Below are positions 51,632-61,166 of a stretch of 64,000 nucleotides of DNA, piece by piece. The stretch's first letter is position 1, and each line of letters opens with the position of its first letter. Source of the stretch: Streptomyces griseus subsp. griseus (GTDB lineage: Bacteria; Actinomycetota; Actinomycetes; Streptomycetales; Streptomycetaceae); contig NZ_CP032543.1 of the NCBI RefSeq assembly GCF_003610995.1, forward strand, positions 5,518,001-5,582,000, in the 5' to 3' direction. Position numbers and translations under genes: made by a program. The notes under the pieces were generated by a model. It did no database searches and had not been told where the DNA came from. It saw nothing but the letters and a program-made list of their open reading frames with translations.

Positions 51632-51658
51632 CCGTCTTTCTGCGACACTGGATGAACC

Positions 51659-51811
51659 ATGCCTAAGCCCGGAGAACTGGCGGCGATCCGGCACCGCACG
51701 GCCCCTGACCAGCACGTTCAGTGCCACTCAGGGGCCGCAAGCGCACCTTTGGGCCGTCTGTGGGCCGTCAATCACCCGAGAGCGTCACTGGCGGAACCCT
51801 CCGAGTCCTAG
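51659..51811 (+). pseudogene. rlmN: 5' fragment of rlmN fused to element DNA
   Basis: The ORF begins MPKPGEL, the start of Streptomyces RlmN (23S rRNA A2503 methyltransferase) as I remember it, at the position after cdsA where rlmN is expected. After codon 7-8 the sequence diverges (AAIRHRTAPDQ...) and stops at TAG 51809, 50 codons in all. The rest of rlmN is not within the window, consistent with integration at its 5' end and displacement of the gene to attR, beyond 64 kb. The residue match is from memory and needs alignment. Confidence 0.6.
51748..51769 (+). repeat. Candidate integrase arm-type direct repeats near attL
   Basis: TGGGCCGTC occurs twice in 51748-51769 (TTTGGGCCGTCTGTGGGCCGTC), 11 bp apart. 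A 10-bp inverted repeat CGGCCCCTGA / TCAGGGGCCG lies beside it at 51699-51737. The placement between the rlmN fragment and int suits attL arm sites for integrase or excisionase. Function is inference. Confidence 0.4.
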
Positions 51812-52228: not shown

Positions 52229-53485
52229 TCAGGGTTTCCGGAAGCTGGTGCTGTCACCCTGCGCACTCAGAGCGGCGTCAATGGCCCGGCGAGTGCGGTC
52301 ACGGCTGCTCGGCATCAGGTGGGCGTACACCCGCAGGGTCAGCGCGGGGTCGGTGTGACCCAGATACTGGCTGACAGCCTTGATGTTCTCCCCGGCGTCC
52401 AGCAAGACGGACGCATAGAAGTGTCGCAGGGCGTGCATCCCATGTTCCCGCGCCGACGCATACTTGCCGTCCGGCCCAGCTTCCGGGATGAGCCCGGCTA
52501 CTGCCAGCGCCCGCTTCCACTCCTGGATGTTGAAGTTGCTTCGCCACACGATCCCACTCGCGGCATTTGTGAAGAGCAGGCGGACCGACACCTTGGGGCC
52601 GTCGGGCTTGCGCCAAGGCAGGGTCACCGCAACCGGTTTGCAGGCGTCCATGTGTGCTCGCAGCGCTTCGGCCACCGAGGCGGGGAGCGGGACGTCTCGC
52701 TCCTTGCCGCACTTCGGTGGGGCGAACACGGCCTTGCCCTGGATGAGCTTCACCTGCCGAACGACCCGCAGGACGCCAGTCTCCAAATCGATCGCGTCCT
52801 CAGCCAGGCCCACGATTTCCCCTTGCCGGAGCCCGCAGCCAGCACCCGTGTCCACCATGGCCCGGTAGCGTTCGGGAAGGGCTTGGCGGACACCCTGAAC
52901 CTGCGAGGGTAGCCATGGGATGACCCGCCGCCGTTCGACCGATGGTGGGCGCACGGACTTTGCGGAACACGGGTTGCGGGGGAGGAGACCGTCGTCCACG
53001 GCCGCACTCAGCACGGCTCGAACGTCGCCGTAGATGTTGCGCGCGTACGCGCCGCTCACGCCCGGGTTGGCCTCAAGGGCGCTCACCAGGTCGCGAAGGT
53101 GCTCCGGCCGAAAGGAGTCGAGAGGGCGCGATCCGAGGATGGGGAAGGCGTGCAGACGTAGACGCTGCTCGGTGACGATCTGGCTCGACAGGTCCGCGCT
53201 ATGCGCCTTGAGCCACTTCTCGGCGTAGCCCTTGAACGTGACGCGGGCTGCGCGCGGGTCGATGTACTGGCCCCGGGACATGTCGGAAGCGACGTTGGTC
53301 AGCCAGTTCTCAGCGAGTCGCTTCTGTCGGTCAGGGAAGGACTTGGACTTCTCGGTGCCGTCGGGACCGACGTAGCGGGCGCGGTAGCGGAGTCCGATGC
53401 CGCATCGGTCGCTCTTGACCCGGCGAGGCTTCCCGTCAGGTCCGGGCTCGGTTTTGTACCAGCGGTCTTGGATGTGGCCGGCCAT
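52229..53485 (-). CDS. int: Tyrosine site-specific integrase
   Basis: Integrates and excises the element at attB/attP. 418 residues. N-terminal arm-binding and SAM-like core-binding regions (RVTFKGYAEKWLKAHSAD). Catalytic set: Arg220 in CGLRQGE, H351xxR354 in HALRHFYAS, His377 in LGHTDP and the nucleophile Tyr387 in RVYAHL. All are present, so it should be active. The 3' end points to attL, the usual AICE layout. ATG 53485 has GGAGCTCCCC upstream on the minus strand. Confidence 0.95.
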   Translation of the reverse strand: MAGHIQDRWYKTEPGPDGKPRRVKSDRCGIGLRYRARYVGPDGTEKSKSFPDRQKRLAENWLTNVASDMSRGQYIDPRAARVTFKGYAEKWLKAHSADLSSQIVTEQRLRLHAFPILGSRPLDSFRPEHLRDLVSALEANPGVSGAYARNIYGDVRAVLSAAVDDGLLPRNPCSAKSVRPPSVERRRVIPWLPSQVQGVRQALPERYRAMVDTGAGCGLRQGEIVGLAEDAIDLETGVLRVVRQVKLIQGKAVFAPPKCGKERDVPLPASVAEALRAHMDACKPVAVTLPWRKPDGPKVSVRLLFTNAASGIVWRSNFNIQEWKRALAVAGLIPEAGPDGKYASAREHGMHALRHFYASVLLDAGENIKAVSQYLGHTDPALTLRVYAHLMPSSRDRTRRAIDAALSAQGDSTSFRKP

Positions 53486-53561
53486 GGGGAGCTCCTGTTG
53501 CGTACGCGGCAGGGGCACGACCTGGTGGTGGTCGTGCCCCTGCGAGAGGTCGTGATGTAGG

Positions 53562-53795
53562 TCAGGCCGCTTCGCGGTCGACGGTCTTGAGGTGCGTGAC
53601 GTGAGCGAGCACTTCGGCAGGGTCGTAACGGATGTGCTTGCCAATGCGGAAGCCGGGTGGGCCGATCTGCTTCTTGCGCCAGGCGTAGACGGTCTCTTTG
53701 GGAACCTCGAAGATTTCGGCGATGTCGTCGGGGGTGAGGTAGCGGTCCGGGAGGCCGCTCCGAAGGGTGGCGCGGGGGTCGGCTTTCGGTGCCAT
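53562..53795 (-). CDS. xis: Excisionase / MerR-like helix-turn-helix protein
   Basis: A 77-residue DNA-binding protein: YLTPDDIAEIFEVPKETVYAWRKKQIGPPGFRIGKHIRY is the helix-turn-helix-17 (Xis) pattern with wing. Located 76 nt upstream of int on the same strand, as excisionases of AICEs are. Probably bends DNA at att sites and directs Int to excision. Confidence 0.9.
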   Translation of the reverse strand: MAPKADPRATLRSGLPDRYLTPDDIAEIFEVPKETVYAWRKKQIGPPGFRIGKHIRYDPAEVLAHVTHLKTVDREAA

Positions 53796-53849
53796 GGGAT
53801 CTCCATGGGGCGGCGGTGGGCGGCGTGGTTGTCCGAGGTGCGTATTTCT

Positions 53850-54065
53850 GCGTCACCGCGTCACCCGCGTCATCTGGGTCTGTGACCTGCGTGTTTGGGT
53901 GACGCAGCGGATCGGGTGTGCGTCACCCTTGCGTCACCTTCGGCGTCACCGGGTGACGCGGAGGTGACGCGGGTGACGCAGGGGTGACGCAGGATTCGGC
54001 GTCTGCGTCACCCCTTCCGGTGCAGGTGGGGGGCCGTTCTCCGTCCCCGGTGACGCAGGTGACGC
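53850..54065. repeat. 13-copy GGTGACGC/GCGTCACC octamer array, origin candidate
   Basis: The exact octamer occurs 13 times in 216 bp: as GCGTCACC at 53850, 53858, 53920, 53931, 53943 and 54005; as GGTGACGC at 53898, 53952, 53963, 53972, 53983, 54049 and 54058. A one-mismatch copy is at 53867. From 53920 to 53990 seven copies are spaced 9-12 bp apart, on one DNA face, and 53943-53959 is a near-perfect palindrome. The rest of the gap (53796-54238) has no ORF. Its place between xis and the replication helicase suits a replication origin or a multi-site protein target. Confidence 0.85.
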
Positions 54066-54176
54066 AGACCTTCCCTACTTAGGAAAAGAGAGGGGGTGTC
54101 TGTAGTAGTAGCGGTGGTTCTTCAGACGAAGTGAGGGGCCCTTCGGGCACGCCTCTTGGGCGGCGTTCCGCCGAAC

Positions 54177-54214
54177 AGCAAGAGGAGCACCCGGCGCGGC
54201 GTGCTCCTCTTGCT
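54177..54214 (-). terminator. Terminator after replication operon
   Basis: A perfect 14-bp stem AGCAAGAGGAGCAC / GTGCTCCTCTTGCT with a 10-nt loop, 25 nt past the helicase stop on the minus strand. It should insulate the origin array and xis-int from the transfer-replication transcript. Confidence 0.8.
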
Positions 54215-54238
54215 TGTCCCCGGGGGGAACTGGTGCGG

Positions 54239-55723
54239 TCAGAACGCCGCCTCCTGCTCCGGCTGCTCAGGGGGCGGGGATGCGGCCGGGCGGGTCATTT
54301 CGAGATAGCGGCCCGCTTTGGTGCGTCCGCTGTCGATGAGGACGCCCCGGGCCGCGAGGGTGGGCTGGAGGCGCTTGAGCCGGTCGGAGAGCACCTTGCC
54401 CGTCGTCGGCCACCCCTTCGGCAGGGGCCGCAGCTCCTCCCCGCTGTAGAGGCGGCTCAGGACGTTCAGCCACTCCGTGGACGTCATCCGCTGCTCGCCC
54501 CCGGGGTCGAGGCTCTCGGCGTGCTGGAGGACGGTCTGCGCGAGCAGGTCGCCCTCGATGACGTCGTCGTTGAGGTCGTCCAGGCTGGCCCGGTACGCGG
54601 GCAGCGCTCCGAGCCCGGTAGCGGTGTCGAGTTGGGCGCAGAGGTGGGCGAAGTCCGCCATCCGCAGATCCGTGGGCGTCTCCGCCACGGCGGCCCGGAC
54701 CTTGACCGTGAGATCCAGGAGCGACCCGAGGACCACGGGCAGCACCTCCTCGTACTCCGCCCACAACTCCGCCTCGGTCCGCCGGACCGTGGGCCGCTCC
54801 AACCGCAGCGGCAGCAGCCGCTCCGCGAGGTCCGGGCGGATGACCCCGACATCGATCCCGGTCAGCAGGAGCGGGCGGCGGTAGCGGGCCCGGTGGACGT
54901 CCCCGTCGGTGAACAGGGCGCGCTTGACGGATTCGGCTCCGGTGACGATGCAGCACATGGCGTCGGACAGGTCCGGGGTCATGTGGGAGAGGTTGTCGAG
55001 GGCGGTGACCCATCCTGCGGCGACGGCCGCGATCAGGTTCTCCTCGTCTTTCGGGGCCCGGCGCAGGTCCCCGCTCATGCCTTCCACAATCCGTACCAGC
55101 ATCCGCCCGCCGGTCGACTTTCCCGCGCCTTGCGGGCCGGTGAGGAACGGGGCCGGGACGGGCACGCCCGGCCCCAGGCAGCCGATCAGCCACGCGATGG
55201 CGAGGCATTCGGTTTCGGCGTTGGCGAAGTTGCACAGCCGCATCAGCAGGTCGATGCCCTTGCCGTCGGTGTCCTTGGCCGGCAGGGGAAGTTCCCCGGT
55301 GAGCTGGGTACGCCGCCAGCACACCTCACGCGGGTCCGGCACGGTGATCTCCCACCCGTTGGGGTGGATACGTACCGACTGCCCGTCGGCGCGGCCGAGG
55401 TCGAGCCAGGTGGCTCCGTCGAACCCGGGCGCGACGCGGATGTGCACGGCCTGGGTGGTCTCGGTCATCGCCAGCGCCTCGATCAGGTCCAGCGCCTCCT
55501 TCAGGGCGGTGCCGTTGAAGACGCCGACCCCGTCGCGGAACATGCCGACCATGAGTTCCTGCCGGTGGCTGCCCGTCGTGCCCTGCGAGCGGATCGGACG
55601 GGCGACGGGGTGGCCGTTCTTCTGGGCGTAGACGGTGCCGTCGGCGGTACGGAAGTACCGGAAGTGAGACTGCGCGTAGTCGCTGATGACCTCACGCGCC
55701 GGGTTCTTCTCGTCCTCGGACAT
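54239..55723 (-). CDS. AAA+ replication helicase-like ATPase of AICE
   Basis: A 494-residue ATPase. Walker A GPQGAGKS at residues 196-203, Walker B-like WVTALDNLSHM, then LLTGIDVGVIRPDLAERLLPLRLE (arginine-finger/sensor region of phage-type SF3/AAA helicases). The C-terminus (RLQPTLAARGVLIDSGRTKAG) looks like a winged helix. It is encoded 3 nt after the Prim-Pol gene stop, forming a split Rep: primase-polymerase plus helicase. In pSAM2 RepSA is one protein; here the functions are in two genes. Activity is inferred. Confidence 0.82.
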   Translation of the reverse strand: MSEDEKNPAREVISDYAQSHFRYFRTADGTVYAQKNGHPVARPIRSQGTTGSHRQELMVGMFRDGVGVFNGTALKEALDLIEALAMTETTQAVHIRVAPGFDGATWLDLGRADGQSVRIHPNGWEITVPDPREVCWRRTQLTGELPLPAKDTDGKGIDLLMRLCNFANAETECLAIAWLIGCLGPGVPVPAPFLTGPQGAGKSTGGRMLVRIVEGMSGDLRRAPKDEENLIAAVAAGWVTALDNLSHMTPDLSDAMCCIVTGAESVKRALFTDGDVHRARYRRPLLLTGIDVGVIRPDLAERLLPLRLERPTVRRTEAELWAEYEEVLPVVLGSLLDLTVKVRAAVAETPTDLRMADFAHLCAQLDTATGLGALPAYRASLDDLNDDVIEGDLLAQTVLQHAESLDPGGEQRMTSTEWLNVLSRLYSGEELRPLPKGWPTTGKVLSDRLKRLQPTLAARGVLIDSGRTKAGRYLEMTRPAASPPPEQPEQEAAF

Positions 55724-55726
55724 GGC

Positions 55727-56575
55727 TCACATCCCCAGTGCGGTGCGGGCGTTGGACCAGGCATCGGTGCAGTGCCGGGGGCTTTCGCCCTTGGTCTGCG
55801 CGGCGGCGAACAGCCGGGCGGCGTGGGAGTCGGTGAGGCACCCGCACCGGCCGTGTGCGGACAGCACGGCGAGGAACGTCCGGTACACCGTGGCGTGCAC
55901 ACCACTCGTCGCGGCGGTGATCCGCTGCTCGGCCATGGCGATACCGCGCTCCAGGTAGGCGGGGGTTCGGTGCCGGCACTCCCCGCCCCCGGCGGGCACG
56001 GGCGCGGTGACGGGCCGGACGGGCGACGGCTTCTTCACGATCAGGGCCCGCACCGCGTCTGGGAGCACGGTCATGGTGCCGGTGCCGGTGCCGAGCCACC
56101 GGGCGTAGACCATGGTCGACTTGATGTCGACACCGTCGCAGACCGCGTTCGCGGACGGCATCGCCCCCTCGTAGATCCAGTGCTCGCCCCGCGTGGTCGG
56201 CACGGTCCGCGTGGCGGGCAGCGTCCGGCGGGCCCACGCGACCGCGTCGGCGTGGTCCAGGTCGACCACGGTCAGCCCGATACCGCCTGGGTGCCAGGCG
56301 ACGGCCGCCGCCTCCCTCCACACCGGCGCCCACGCGGGCCCGGTGATGATGTCGGGGGCGGTGGTGGCGGCGGCCCATGCATGGCACGGGCGGGGGCACG
56401 CGCAGGGGCCGGGAGTCTTCATGTTCGGCCGGCCGCCGCAGGCGTTGTCCCGGCAGGCGGGGCAGTTCCCGAACGGGACCTTCCCCGCGCGCAGCGGCAG
56501 GACGGGCACGCCCTGGGCCGCAAGGTGTAACGCGATGTGCAGGTGGTCTCGCCGGATGGTGGTGGGTTGGGTCAT
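55727..56575 (-). CDS. Bifunctional DNA primase/polymerase (Prim-Pol)
   Basis: A 282-residue Prim-Pol protein. Cys-rich zinc-knuckle region near residues 38-64 (NCPACRDNAC ... CACPRPCHAW), then IGLTVVDLDHADA with the catalytic DxD (Asp105, Asp107) and GEHWIYEGAM, MVYARWLGTG. The C-terminal part ends in a small helical domain (TAATSGVHATVYRTFLAVL). ATG 56575 is selected; longer starts add non-conserved residues. Coupled with the helicase gene downstream. Likely primes and copies the excised circle. Confidence 0.85.
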   Translation of the reverse strand: MTQPTTIRRDHLHIALHLAAQGVPVLPLRAGKVPFGNCPACRDNACGGRPNMKTPGPCACPRPCHAWAAATTAPDIITGPAWAPVWREAAAVAWHPGGIGLTVVDLDHADAVAWARRTLPATRTVPTTRGEHWIYEGAMPSANAVCDGVDIKSTMVYARWLGTGTGTMTVLPDAVRALIVKKPSPVRPVTAPVPAGGGECRHRTPAYLERGIAMAEQRITAATSGVHATVYRTFLAVLSAHGRCGCLTDSHAARLFAAAQTKGESPRHCTDAWSNARTALGM

Positions 56576-56669
56576 GCTGGGGTCCTCCAGTTCGTTGTGC
56601 TGGATCACAAGGGCGGCCCCAGACTTTGGCGAGGCGGGGGCCGCCCTTGGCGTTGCGTGGTGTGGGTGC

Positions 56670-58511
56670 TCAGGCGGCTTGCTGGCCGGGCAGGATTCGC
56701 CCGTCGGCGGTGCGCTGAAGGGCACCTGACGCGGAGAGTGCTTTGATCTCGCGGGAGACGGTGCCTTTGTTCAGGCCCGTCGCGTCGGCCACTTCCTTGG
56801 CCGTCCGGGCGCCCGCCTGTACGGCGCCCAGCACCTTGTCCCGGTTGGACGCGATCCCGGACGGGGCGGTGTTCTTGACCAGCCGCAACGGTGCCGAGGT
56901 CGCCTGGTCGGTGGTGGGGTTGCCGGGGGTCCAGATGGACTTGGGCAGGGCGCGGACGCCGGTGTCATCCAGGGTCCAGGTGCGCAGCATGCGCGGCCCG
57001 TAGCCCTTGAGGTAGCCGTGTCCCCGGTACTCGCGCCCGTCGGGGATCTGGTGGGGTGCGTAGTGGGCGCAGTCGTCCAGGGCGACCTGGGCCTGAGTCG
57101 TGCCAGCCACCCGCAGGGAGAAGCGGGTCAGCAGGTTCGGGGCGATCAGTTTGTGTACGCCGGGGGCGGCCCCGTCGGTGAGCGGGTACTGCGTGGCCCA
57201 CCACAGCACCACCCCACGTGAGCGGCCCAGCGAGGACAGCTCGATGAGCCGCTGGAGGCGGTCCTTGTCCCGCTGGATCAGGGCGAGGATCACCTGTCCT
57301 TCGTCGATGACGACGGTGAGCTGCCGGCCGTCCCAGACGCTGATGCCGCGCTTCTTCATGTCGTGCTTGCGGCGGGTCATCTCCGCATGCCCGTCGTCCA
57401 CCGTGGCGGTGATCTCGTCGGCCTCCACAGCGACGCGGCAGACGTTCTCCCAGATGTTGGCCTCTTCACCCTTGCCGTCGATCAGGACCACGTCACCGCG
57501 CAGGTGGGCGGTCGCGATCAGCGGGCGGAACGACCACGACTTGCCCGTGCCGGACGCACCGGAGACCAACAGCCGCTCATCGAACGGAACCAGCACCTCG
57601 TCCCCGGTCTCGGTGTCCAGACCCAGACTCATCATCAGCGGGTCGGCGGGGATGCGGTCGGGGGTCCACAGCGAGGAGACGCCCGCGGCTGCCGACCGCG
57701 TCGCCAACGACACCACCGCCCACCCACCACGCGAAGCCGACGTGATCCGGACCCGCAGCGCGGTCCGCGCCCCGAGCAACGCCCGGACGGAGTCGGCCTT
57801 GTCGGAGAGCGTCTTGACGGTCCAGGTGCCATCGAGTCGGATTTCGCAGCGGATTCCGCCCGGCTCCATCGTGGGCGGGGTGGTGACCGTGCCGGACAGG
57901 CCACGGTCCGGGGCGTGCTCCACCCAATACGACGGGTCCAGGCGCTCCATGAGCTGACGCTCCTCCAGCGACAGCGACTCATCCACCACCACCCGCGCCC
58001 GACGACGGCCGAGCCCGAGCGCGGCGGCGTTCGCTCCGATCAGCAGCGCGGACGTGGTGGCAGGCCAGAGCGTGAGGTGCTGGGCGGACATGAGCGCAGT
58101 CGCGATGACGCCGGGCACGGCGTGCACCGAGTGCGCTTGGATCGCGCGGGCCTTGAGCGTGGTCGGGTAGTTCACCCGCGCCTCTTTGAGCTTGGCCCGG
58201 GTGTCCCGCTCATGCGACGACGCAGCCTTCGTCGCGACGCGGGCGGCGCGGCGGGACGCGGCGAACGGGTTGCTCGACGCGGCCCGCGCGGTGAGCTTCT
58301 GCGACTTGGCCGTCGACAGGGTGGAGCGGGCGGCGTTGTGCTCCTTCTGCGCCGCCATGAGCGCCTTCAAGTGCTCCGAGGTGCGGAGCTTGTTGCGGCG
58401 ATCGGCCTCCAGATCCCAGCGCACCGCGAACGGCACGAACACCGGGGAGAGCGAATCGAGTGCCGTGGTGGTGGTGTTGGTGGTGGTCGACCATGCTTGC
58501 TTCCAGTCCAC
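56670..58511 (-). CDS. traB: TraB/TraSA-type FtsK-SpoIIIE DNA translocase
   Basis: A 613-residue conjugation motor that pumps double-stranded DNA between hyphae. An N-terminal Ala/Lys-rich coiled region, hydrophobic segments (VIATALMSAQHLTLWPATTSALLIGANAAALG, two TM helices), Walker A GASGTGKS (318-325) and Walker B LTVVIDEGQ (Asp403-Glu404). C-terminal winged helix from about residue 555 (VLGAVQAGARTAKEVADATGLNKGTVSREI), the domain that recognises TRS repeats in Streptomyces plasmids (established). GTG 58511 has GGAGGA upstream. An alternative longer start is unlikely. Confidence 0.92.
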   Translation of the reverse strand: MDWKQAWSTTTNTTTTALDSLSPVFVPFAVRWDLEADRRNKLRTSEHLKALMAAQKEHNAARSTLSTAKSQKLTARAASSNPFAASRRAARVATKAASSHERDTRAKLKEARVNYPTTLKARAIQAHSVHAVPGVIATALMSAQHLTLWPATTSALLIGANAAALGLGRRRARVVVDESLSLEERQLMERLDPSYWVEHAPDRGLSGTVTTPPTMEPGGIRCEIRLDGTWTVKTLSDKADSVRALLGARTALRVRITSASRGGWAVVSLATRSAAAGVSSLWTPDRIPADPLMMSLGLDTETGDEVLVPFDERLLVSGASGTGKSWSFRPLIATAHLRGDVVLIDGKGEEANIWENVCRVAVEADEITATVDDGHAEMTRRKHDMKKRGISVWDGRQLTVVIDEGQVILALIQRDKDRLQRLIELSSLGRSRGVVLWWATQYPLTDGAAPGVHKLIAPNLLTRFSLRVAGTTQAQVALDDCAHYAPHQIPDGREYRGHGYLKGYGPRMLRTWTLDDTGVRALPKSIWTPGNPTTDQATSAPLRLVKNTAPSGIASNRDKVLGAVQAGARTAKEVADATGLNKGTVSREIKALSASGALQRTADGRILPGQQAA

Positions 58512-58681
58512 GAGAGTCCTCCAAGACCGTGGATAAGGGCCGGTGCGCCGTTGCGTGGCGACACCGGCCCGCCCTAGTTGCACAGGTAGCCACTGCTGGT
58601 TGCGTCAACAGCGGCGGTTGAACCCCCGCAACCGGCCCTGACCTGCGAAGTTGCAGAGTTGAGCCGTCCGGGGGGTGGGGG

Positions 58682-58763
58682 CCCTACGCGCCCGCGCGCG
58701 TAGGGCGGTCGAAATCGGGGCCGTGCAACCCCCTGGGAGGCCGCTGAGCGGCCGTCCAGGGGG
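58682..58763. other. Two strong hairpins in traB upstream region
   Basis: CCCTACGCG / CGCGTAGGG (58682-58705) and a larger CCCCCTGG...GGCCGC / GCGGCC...CCAGGGGG hairpin (58729-58763) lie in the 311-nt gap (58512-58822) between the small Spd-like gene and traB. The gap has no coding signal. They may be transcription attenuators, or part of the cis-acting locus (clt) that is often near traB. Confidence 0.5.
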
Positions 58764-58822
58764 CCGGGGGTCAAACCCCTTTCGCGAGGGGGCCCGATCG
58801 CTCTCTGGGGCGCTGGGCGGTT

Positions 58823-59290
58823 TCAGTGGGTGGAGCGGCCGAACCACCGGTTGTGGACCGTGGTGTTGTGCACCGTCGTGGGCCGCCCGGCACCGAGGAC
58901 GGCGGGGGCGATGCGGGAGGCGACGACGGCGATGGCGGCCCACATCACGAGCGACCCGAGACCGGCGGCGGCGCTCACGAGCTGACCGGCACCGAGCAGG
59001 AGCTGACCGGCACCCCACCCGGCACCACCGGCAAGCAGGCCGCCGGCGGCGATGCGCTGGGCGCGCGGGTCGAACAACGGCAGGGGGGTCAGGTCACGCG
59101 GCTGGTAGACGGCGGGGGCGGTGGGCAGATGCTCACGGAGCACCGCCACCATCGACCCGTCCGGGCCGGGGACGTAGACGACCGTCCCGGTCTGCTCGGC
59201 GTGGAGCCGCACCAGGCCGGTTGTGGGGGTGGCCGGTGCGGTGGGCCAGCCCGGGGGGACCTGTAAGGCGGGACTGGGGCGGTGGTTCAT
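58823..59290 (-). CDS. Small Spd-like membrane protein
   Basis: A 155-residue protein with a Pro/Gly-rich N-terminus (HRPSPALQVPPGWPTAP) and, from residue about 95, two hydrophobic segments ([27 protein letters not shown] and LGSLVMWAAIAVVASRIAPAVLG). Placed just upstream of traB, where spd (spread) genes lie in Streptomyces plasmids, so a role in intramycelial spreading is likely but unproven. ATG 59290 chosen from GGAGAAGGCA upstream. Confidence 0.7.
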   Translation of the reverse strand: MNHRPSPALQVPPGWPTAPATPTTGLVRLHAEQTGTVVYVPGPDGSMVAVLREHLPTAPAVYQPRDLTPLPLFDPRAQRIAAGGLLAGGAGWGAGQLLLGAGQLVSAAAGLGSLVMWAAIAVVASRIAPAVLGAGRPTTVHNTTVHNRWFGRSTH

Positions 59291-59352: not shown

Positions 59353-60168
59353 TCATGTCATGCACCAGCCGGAGTCGCACAGCCCGTCGGTGTCTTCGAA
59401 GCCAGGCAGTACATCGACCCCGTCCGGGATGGCCTGGCGCAGTGGCCGGCCGAACCGGGTGAGGTAGACGTGGTCCTTGCCCAACGTGTCGCGACGCTGG
59501 TTGAGGAGTTCTTCGAGCTGGCAGGACTTCTCGAACAGGTCGGGTTCGTTGCGGCGCATGTCGTGCCAGGTCTCGGGCCGGTGAAACGGGCAGAACCAGC
59601 ACGAGGACTTCGGCGGGACAGGCAGGCCCGCTTCCCGGATGATGCGGGCGCAGTCGATGCGCCGCAGACCGAGTTCGAGGAGCGGGTAGACGATCTCTTC
59701 GTGCGGTTCGCAGCGGCGCTTGTTGGCCCGGTGGATCTCATCCAGGCTGATCCCGATCCCGACCGTCGCCGGGGCCTCCTTGGTGGCGCCCCGGCGCTTC
59801 AACTCACGGCCGATCACCTTGATCTTGAAATCGGCCGTGCAGCTACGCGTCCCGGGGGCCCCGTTGGACATGCGCACCGGGATCGCAAGGGACCGGCTGC
59901 CTTCCTTGGTGAGCTGCCCGTACAGCGTGCGGGTCTCACCGCTGCGGACCATCACCCGGTCCAGCACCGCCAGCTCGATACCGTGCTCGGCCGCGAACGG
60001 GCGGGCGTACTCCTCCAGGTACCGCAGAGTCCCCGGATGCTCACTGTCGTCGCCGACGTTGGCCATCAGGAACGTACGGAAGTCGATCCGCCCCTGCGCG
60101 GCCAGAACCAACAGGGCAGTGGACTGGACGCCCCCGCCGTAGCTGATGGAACGGATCGAAGCCGTCAT
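59353..60168 (-). CDS. PP-loop ATPase, PAPS-reductase-like cysteine protein
   Basis: A 271-residue N-type ATP-pyrophosphatase: SYGGGVQSTALL (PP-loop, residues 9-20), VGDDSEHPGT (residues 38-47). Cysteines at 110 (RSCTADFK), 190 and 193 (SSCWFCPFH), and C-terminal C264/C269 suggest an Fe-S site as in DndC/CysH-like enzymes. The target is unknown: sulfur chemistry on nucleic acid is possible, but no other dnd-like genes are here. Overlaps the DUF2637 gene by ATGA, so it belongs to the transfer operon. Confidence 0.75.
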   Translation of the reverse strand: MTASIRSISYGGGVQSTALLVLAAQGRIDFRTFLMANVGDDSEHPGTLRYLEEYARPFAAEHGIELAVLDRVMVRSGETRTLYGQLTKEGSRSLAIPVRMSNGAPGTRSCTADFKIKVIGRELKRRGATKEAPATVGIGISLDEIHRANKRRCEPHEEIVYPLLELGLRRIDCARIIREAGLPVPPKSSCWFCPFHRPETWHDMRRNEPDLFEKSCQLEELLNQRRDTLGKDHVYLTRFGRPLRQAIPDGVDVLPGFEDTDGLCDSGWCMT

Positions 60169-61166
60169 GAGGACGCTCCTTCCAGGACGAGCCCGGTGCC
60201 GTCGCGGTGTTCCTGGTAGCGGGCGGTGACCCAGCCGGTGGACCAGCCGCACAGCTCGGCGGCCTGCCGGATGGACAGCCCGGCGCCGAACGCGGCCCGG
60301 ACCGTGGCCCGCGCCCGCTCCTCGCCCTGCTTCTCCACAGCAGGCCCGGCGGACAACAGTTCCTGCCGTTCACGCTCGGCCCGCTGCTGTTCACGGTCGC
60401 GCTCACGGCGCTCACGAGCCTCACGCTCCCGAGCCTCCAACTCACGGCGCTGAGCGGCCTCGCGTTCAAGGCGTTCACGCTCGGCCTGCTGCTGTTCACG
60501 CATCTGCTCACGGCGTTCACGGGCCTCACGCTCCGCCCGCTCCCGTGCCTCCGCCCGCTCGCGCTCCTCACGCCGGGCCGCGTCCTCGCGGGCGGTCTGT
60601 TCACGGGCGATCAGCGCTTCATGCTCACGCTGTTCACGCGCCAACATGGCCGCGTGCTCCCGCTCCTCACGAGCCCGCCGCTCCTGCGCCTCACGCCGCT
60701 CGGTGGCGGCCCGCTCGCGCTCGGCGCGCTCGGCCTTGAGCTGGGCTTCACGGGCGCTCTGGGCGGCGGTGATGGCCCGCCGGTAGGCGAGTCCGGTCTC
60801 TGCGGTGACGATCAGCAGGAGCGGTGCGACCGCGTGGACAGCGGCACCGACCAGGTCCTTCTTCAGTGCGGAGTCGGCCACGTTCAGGGCCAGGGTCATG
60901 GCTCCGGTCATCCACCGCAGGGCGATGGGCCACCGGCCACCGTGCCCGCCCAGCGCGGCCAGCACGGCATCCAGGCGGACCACGATGACGACCGCCGCGT
61001 CCACGACGAGCGGCAGGATCGGGGCCGTCCACTCCCACCCCTTCGGGCTGTGCCGCTCCATCAACGGCGTGACCGTGAGGATGGAGAACAGCATCGCCCC
61101 GCCCACGATCAGCCACGTCCCGACCGACAGGGCCTTCTCTGCTGAACGGATCTGAACACTGTTCAC
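60165..61166 (-). CDS. DUF2637 (SpdB-like) membrane protein with coiled coil and C-terminal HTH
   Basis: A 333-residue protein. Four TM segments (residues about 14-33, 48-66, 80-96 and 105-122), then a highly charged Arg/Glu single helix (residues about 130-290: REREERAERE-like repeats), and a C-terminal helix-turn-helix-like end (SIRQAAELCGWSTGWVTARYQEH). SpdB2 of pSVH1 is an oligomeric membrane protein that binds DNA (established). This architecture would tether DNA to the membrane during spread. Overlaps DUF6284 by 4 nt. Confidence 0.8.
   Translation of the reverse strand: MNSVQIRSAEKALSVGTWLIVGGAMLFSILTVTPLMERHSPKGWEWTAPILPLVVDAAVVIVVRLDAVLAALGGHGGRWPIALRWMTGAMTLALNVADSALKKDLVGAAVHAVAPLLLIVTAETGLAYRRAITAAQSAREAQLKAERAERERAATERREAQERRAREEREHAAMLAREQREHEALIAREQTAREDAARREERERAEARERAEREARERREQMREQQQAERERLEREAAQRRELEAREREARERRERDREQQRAERERQELLSAGPAVEKQGEERARATVRAAFGAGLSIRQAAELCGWSTGWVTARYQEHRDGTGLVLEGASS

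Follow-up and report, generated by a model that had tools for sequence, protein, structure and literature searches.

A repeat array that is almost certainly the replication start site of a Streptomyces mobile element, with the first letters of its repeats apparently read by the element's helicase

Known replicons and the Streptomyces griseus element

In the pri-rep-ori modules of phage-inducible chromosomal islands (PICIs), two sets of iterons flank an AT-rich region (as outlined in PMC6092414). Plasmid pWTY27 encodes RepB, a primase-polymerase (Prim-Pol), together with RepA and carries footprinted iterons, and the RepA of pFP11 binds iterons (excerpts of PMC3583192). Actinomycete integrative and conjugative elements (AICEs) of the Prim-Pol, or RepPP, type have also been described; in SLP1, the Prim-Pol gene SCO4617 is followed by the replication gene SCO4618 in one of two regions important for replication (excerpts of PMC3218068). 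Phage P4 alpha binds origin repeats, and the proposed origin of pRN1 lies 3' of its rep gene (as outlined in PMC4234260). Here we analyze a dense repeat array at positions 53850–54065 of a 64,000-nucleotide stretch ("the window") of the Streptomyces griseus subsp. griseus genome (GCF_003610995.1, contig NZ_CP032543.1, positions 5,518,001 to 5,582,000). Sequence comparison indicates that the repeats are almost certainly the start site at which a mobile element begins replication, and each repeat's first letters appear to be read by the modeled tip of the helicase that the element encodes.

The genes of the element lie on the minus strand and run, in order of transcription, FtsK-like Tra, Prim-Pol, a 494-amino-acid helicase-like protein, the array, an Xis-like protein, and a tyrosine integrase. 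The helicase (54239–55723, minus strand) is assigned as an initiator of D5/SF3 fold with a predicted C-terminal winged helix; searches of Pfam, NCBIfam, and PHROG at 1e-3 gave no match to it, and its matches to PDB structures all come from VIA-align. The best reading, by analogy, is of a helicase that would load itself on iterons with priming by Prim-Pol, as in the pri-rep-ori modules of Staphylococcus aureus pathogenicity islands (SaPIs) and PICIs and in the RepA-iteron plasmids pFP11 and pWTY27. As in SaPI/PICI modules, a primase and a D5/SF3-type helicase are encoded together and the iterons lie directly 3' of the helicase gene. The two proteins have separate genes here, as in some PICIs, whereas they are fused in SaPI5. 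SaPIs and PICIs are phage satellites, whereas the window's type belongs to Streptomyces conjugative elements and plasmids. The PICI arrangement of two iteron sets around an AT-rich melting site was not found; instead, a dense array with repeats in both orientations, continuous apart from GC-rich gaps, has inward-facing outer boxes and an AT-richer tract to one side. We therefore class it not as a PICI origin but only as one that would work like it.

The components of a RepA-iteron theta replicon (a rep gene, adjacent repeats in both orientations, and Prim-Pol) are all present. pWTY27 likewise has Prim-Pol and RepA with adjacent repeats in both orientations, the RepA footprint falling on a long inverted repeat (excerpts of PMC3583192). 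pFP11 encodes a 35% homologue of the window helicase, which we infer to be its characterized RepA, and about 0.6 kb further on has an AGGGACGC array. Both replicate as plasmids and have different repeat sequences; pWTY27 RepA is likened to the window helicase by description only, as is the SLP1 RepPP module, in which an AICE also has Prim-Pol followed by a replication gene and for which the excerpts of PMC3218068 mention no origin repeats. P4 alpha and pRN1 ORF904 share a primase, a helicase, and a C-terminal winged helix with the window's system, but as domains fused in one protein rather than separate genes. In addition, pRN1 uses a stem-loop, not iterons, and the P4 primase is of the Toprim type (as outlined in PMC4234260).

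The repeat array and its relatives

Thirteen exact GGTGACGC/GCGTCACC octamers, six on the minus strand and seven on the plus, fall within the 216 bp of the array, which also holds a copy with one mismatch, GATGACGC (53867–53874). This recount agrees with a sequence-only reading of the same DNA, which had reported thirteen octamers in both orientations, seven of them 9–12 bp apart (successive spacings are 11, 12, 9, 11, 9, and 11 bp), and had called the array noncoding; the open reading frames that overlap it are mechanical ones only. That reading had also placed a palindromic center at 53943–53959. The palindrome itself, GCGTCACCGGGTGACGC, is there and reads GCGTCACC-G-GGTGACGC, but the best mirror center of the whole array lies instead at about 53955–53957. 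The window contains 18 octamers, against a shuffle mean of 7.4 (standard deviation 2.5; at least 18 in 0 of 100 shuffles). A genome-wide count, which the sequence-only reading had proposed as a check, gave 1113 copies in 7.238 Mb. This frequency, about 1 per 6.5 kb, is not equal to the 1 per 17 bp seen in the array, where density is ∼390 times the genome average. A scan of close pairs, covering direct and convergent but not divergent ones, found nine places in the genome with two direct octamers no more than 30 bp apart, seven of them in the array, and three convergent inverted pairs within the same distance, all in the array. Rfam, at gathering thresholds, gave no match anywhere in the window.

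A helicase match was present in 51 of the 199 genomes searched, the window's own counted. Sixty loci around helicase matches were fetched, then 15 more, with a minority of the short partial matches among them; the fetched plasmids represent 5 of 31 plasmid records. Where the helicase is at least 81% identical, the 650 bp past the helicase stop hold six or more TGACGC cores in 54 of 56 loci (counting the window). Across these relatives the repeat unit is better given as NNTGACGCAG, GG being the variant of the window's element. Eighty further loci were named (the best 80 of 570), and removal of 11 with a helicase from the first set left 69 held-out elements of the same broad group. In all 69 distinct elements, and in all five fetched plasmids, repeats follow the helicase gene beside Prim-Pol. 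The same GGTGACGC array sits next to a helicase of 68–69% identity on circular plasmids of S. cellulosae and S. melanogenes, with 72% DNA identity over 280 bp in an alignment of the regions.

Related but different repeats follow distant helicases: GGGGGACGC (L107 and pFP12), AGGGACGC (pFP11), GGGACGCA (pSTS2), ACCGTCC (L111 and L112), and ATGTCCC (L122 and L124). At least seven copies of a 7-mer occurred within 1.2 kb past the helicase in 12 of 20 distant loci and in all five fetched plasmids, versus 18 of 226 control windows; fewer than seven were found in eight distant loci (L109, L110, L117, L119, L121, L123, L125, and L126). Separately, other dense 7-mer clusters lie away from the helicase at about 5797 in L109 and 4079 in L110 (helicase-forward), with 12 and 13 copies in 260 bp, and in L113, L114, and L115 the array falls inside a 3' extension of the helicase reading frame.

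The sequence-only reading had offered two candidates for the array, origin iterons or a translocase-recognition sequence (TRS) of the clt type. The first is strongly backed by helicase-linked conservation, the plasmid relatives, and the co-variation described below, and the second is not supported, relatives of Tra being patchy. As a TRS/clt, the octamers would be bound by the translocase TraB, which would pump double-stranded DNA into the recipient. AICEs do use an FtsK-like Tra, short repeats are present in clt sites, and TraA of pWTY27 binds a clt with four TGACACC repeats, a site located at its tra gene (excerpts of PMC3583192). The window's array, however, adjoins the helicase gene, not tra. 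A tblastn search, which a very divergent Tra, or one beyond the fetched stretch, would escape, turned up a relative of the window Tra in 4 of the 60 fetched loci and in 11 of the 69 held-out loci with 4-kb flanks (3 at ≥40% identity). Within that reach, the repeats persist where no relative of the cognate TraB was found. Furthermore, an 86%-identical Tra occurs in L055/L056, L070, and L078, yet their repeat variants differ. A direct-repeat search near tra (58560–58900) gave two-copy families only and no compelling clt. We consider a transfer site very improbable. Ten large proteins encoded upstream of Prim-Pol in other loci divide into four that reach Pfam FtsK, three with weak AAA-only matches, and three with no match. 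One protein in that position (L077:7753-10155:+) has a DpdA domain (PF23859, E 6.6e-66) as well as FtsK_SpoIIIE, joining a translocase to a DNA-modification-type domain.

Binding of the array by Xis or Int, or its use as an operator of a xis-int promoter, would suit its position directly upstream of xis. The conserved hairpin after the helicase gene suggests such a promoter in the same gap, though a scan limited to a sigma-70 pattern found no promoter-like site in 53780–54260. Relatives of int and xis are patchy among the 60 fetched loci. In the held-out set, the repeats occur in 69 of 69 elements, as against 25 of 69 for a relative of Xis and 23 of 69 for Int at ≥40% identity, and the share of A at the second variable base ranges from 0.08 to 0.92 among the 25 Xis-bearing elements. 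There is thus scant likelihood that Xis or Int is the reader, although an origin-bound helicase could possibly control xis-int as a second role.

Co-variation with helicase residue 469

Elements differ in the two bases immediately 5' to the TGACGC core. In a first set of 53 distinct elements, which excludes L090 and L097 (fewer than six sites) and one duplicate, no helicase column did better than residue 469, which ranked first among 127 for base 2 and among 121 for base 1. Since this residue came from a search, it was retested on the new elements. In the 69 held-out elements, the proportion of A at base 2 gave an adjusted eta2 of 0.88 with residue 469; the next helicase column reached 0.30. 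GG was the commonest pair in 16 of 16 elements with Lys469, and GA or CA in 20 of 20 with Ser469. The 22 elements with Arg469 had GG (14), CG (7), or GA (1). CA was commonest in the seven with Phe, Tyr, Met, or Ala, with one tie with GA; the three with His469 were mixed, and the single Gly469 element had GA. Ties for the commonest pair were settled by order (e.g., L137, L158, L185, and L197). Ser469 in the first set went with GA or CA in 11 of 16 elements and with GG in the other five. The window helicase has Lys469 (codon at 54317–54319, minus strand) at its predicted wing tip.

When nearest pairs over the first 400 residues differed in 469 class, the rule held in 42 of 44 (elements with H, N, or G at 469, 5 of 122, were left out). 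Parsimony on a tree of the same 400 residues required 25 changes of class and 24 of motif, versus 35 when class labels were shuffled; several of these changes may therefore reflect recombination. Linkage was controlled by whole codons, single nucleotides not being like for like (those of codon 469 reach only 0.35). Codon 469 fitted at 0.73 in all 122 elements and 0.89 in the 69; the next codon gave 0.35 and 0.44, synonymous-only codons 0.15 and 0.13, and intergenic columns reached 0.31. Simple linkage therefore fails to explain the peak. Inclusion of residues 465 and 474, which in the predicted structure sit in two strands of one hairpin in the same wing, raised the fit to 0.91 (all 122, fitted post hoc). 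The wing code depends on residues neighboring 469. As a separate observation, L082, L086, L088, L089, L094, and L205 combine Ser469 with Trp465 and an ARYIEM wing, yet their repeats are of GG type or mixed, and most of the six have fewer sites. The location of the array, its conservation, the co-variation, and the predicted fold rest on computation, and what computation provides here is association.

That the array is a parS-like partition centromere, or binds Prim-Pol instead of the helicase, draws on a ParA gene after the array on three fetched plasmids, on Prim-Pol in all 69 held-out elements, and on a first-set Prim-Pol column of 0.37, but we judge it a most unlikely explanation given that no ParA was found among the 10 window proteins scanned against Pfam and that held-out Prim-Pol columns reach at most 0.10 and 0.26 versus 0.88 and 0.50 for helicase residue 469.

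Origin architecture, host element, and proposed mechanism

Outer boxes of the pattern T[GT]TCC[TGC]RRG, picked after the alignment had been viewed, lie 20–21 bp from the outermost cores and point into the array; of 122 elements, 115 have one on the helicase side, 109 on the xis side, and 102 on both, and none has one in the opposite orientation. In the window these are TTTCCTAAG (54078–54086, minus strand) and TGTCCGAGG (53830–53838, plus strand), respectively. We do not claim them as the Streptomyces DnaA box, TTGTCCACA (excerpts of PMC3583192), to which they are only 6/9 alike by eye. A GACCTGC box occupies the gap between iteron groups (53884–53890, plus strand); read helicase-forward, TGACCTGC is present in 68 of 122 arrays and GCAGGTCA in 81 of 122. 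The conserved order of sites is often <9<46>20<10<9<11>12>11>20<33>9>8> (by alignment, 21 of 56 close arrays). The least GC-rich stretch beside the array (54060–54119; GC 0.50–0.53 per 40 bp versus 0.71 for the window) contains a conserved pyrimidine tract and TCCTAAG and is a candidate melting region. After the helicase stop, a hairpin formed by AGCAAGAGGAGCAC..GTGCTCCTCTTGCT (54177–54214), similar in 102 of 122 elements, is a probable terminator. Twelve of 14 sites in the window pair in mirror symmetry, equalled by 5 of 1000 shuffles with repeat cores picked by eye. Such shuffles, applied to 6 close loci and to 16 that are distant or on plasmids, did not uphold a strict dyad origin throughout the family.

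Among the other genes, Prim-Pol (55727–56725, minus strand) matches Pfam PF09250. The TraB-like FtsK/SpoIIIE translocase (56670–58583, minus strand) matches Pfam FtsK_SpoIIIE under the cut-off and PHROG 17958 at 8e-57. The Xis-like HTH_17 protein is encoded at 53562–53795 and the tyrosine integrase, with a provisional start position, at 52229–53500, both on the minus strand. A 40-bp att-like direct repeat (51639–51678, plus strand) recurs at 64526–64565 (5582526–5582565 of the contig), beyond the window, so the element is ∼12.9 kb long and ends just outside it. The ATGCCTAAGCCCGGAGAACT within this repeat resembles what we take to be the start of rlmN. An AICE inserted in rlmN has been described (as outlined in PMC9513070). 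Int, Xis, Rep, and FtsK-like Tra all lie between the att repeats and the layout is AICE-like, as known here from genes and repeats. A protein encoded at 59353–60252 (minus strand) looks PP-loop/PAPS-reductase-like by eye and has no Pfam match at 1e-3.

Several observations weigh against an origin read by the helicase. The elements are related, which makes the counts non-independent, and recombination may have moved the array jointly with the helicase 3' end. If only linked cores (gaps ≤80 bp) are counted, 52 of the 56 close loci have at least six and 4 have fewer; 7 of the 20 distant loci hold a denser repeat cluster elsewhere. Mirror symmetry in five other close loci was reached by 29, 29, 63, 143, and 203 of 1000 shuffles, and among 16 distant or plasmid loci it stands out in L112 only (25/1000). 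There is no AT-rich center: of 56 close loci, 42 have their lowest-GC 40-mer toward the helicase and 14 have it elsewhere. Exceptions to the 469 class rule number 9 among 117 elements; six of the nine have Ser469, all with Trp465, and four of those six have only 7–8 sites. The best first-set Prim-Pol column exceeded the 95% permutation level of 0.32, though it was weak in the held-out set. Finally, whole-domain Mantel tests were flat or negative (C-terminal r 0.03–0.06, N-terminal about −0.13).

With these points weighed, the array is very probably the iteron origin of an AICE-like element, which the adjacent helicase would bind and open and at which Prim-Pol would prime. Helicase subunits would bind the repeats via the C-terminal winged helix, in which residue 469 of the wing, together with 465 and 474, would read the two bases immediately 5' to the core. 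Once bound, the helicase would assemble and load itself, probably forming opposed hexamers on an array that is roughly mirror-symmetric. Nearby DNA would melt, likely in the AT-richer tract, and Prim-Pol would lay the first primers to replicate the excised circle. Binding, melting, loading, priming, and the bidirectionality of the origin are thus proposed from sequence. We lean, with some reserve, toward a broader proposal. A single residue at the wing tip would largely determine origin specificity (Lys: GG; Ser: GA/CA; Phe/Tyr/Met: CA; Arg: GG/CG/TG), with about 25 class changes on the helicase tree, each matched by rewriting, or replacing through recombination, about a dozen iterons. Elements that swap Tra and Int would then comprise rapidly diversifying incompatibility types, and a PICI-like pri-rep-ori plan would be widespread in Streptomyces conjugative elements.

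A limited search of open-licence literature at title and abstract level found no earlier description of the wing-residue code, the inward-facing outer boxes, or this array. As an iteron origin the locus is ordinary in kind; it is unusually clear as to the reader of the repeats. For AICEs of the Prim-Pol type, the analysis supplies a specific candidate origin and a named contact of the initiator, so that autonomous replication can be tested directly. A one-residue code that has changed repeatedly together with about a dozen sites is a tractable model of initiator-origin co-evolution and of how incompatibility groups may split.
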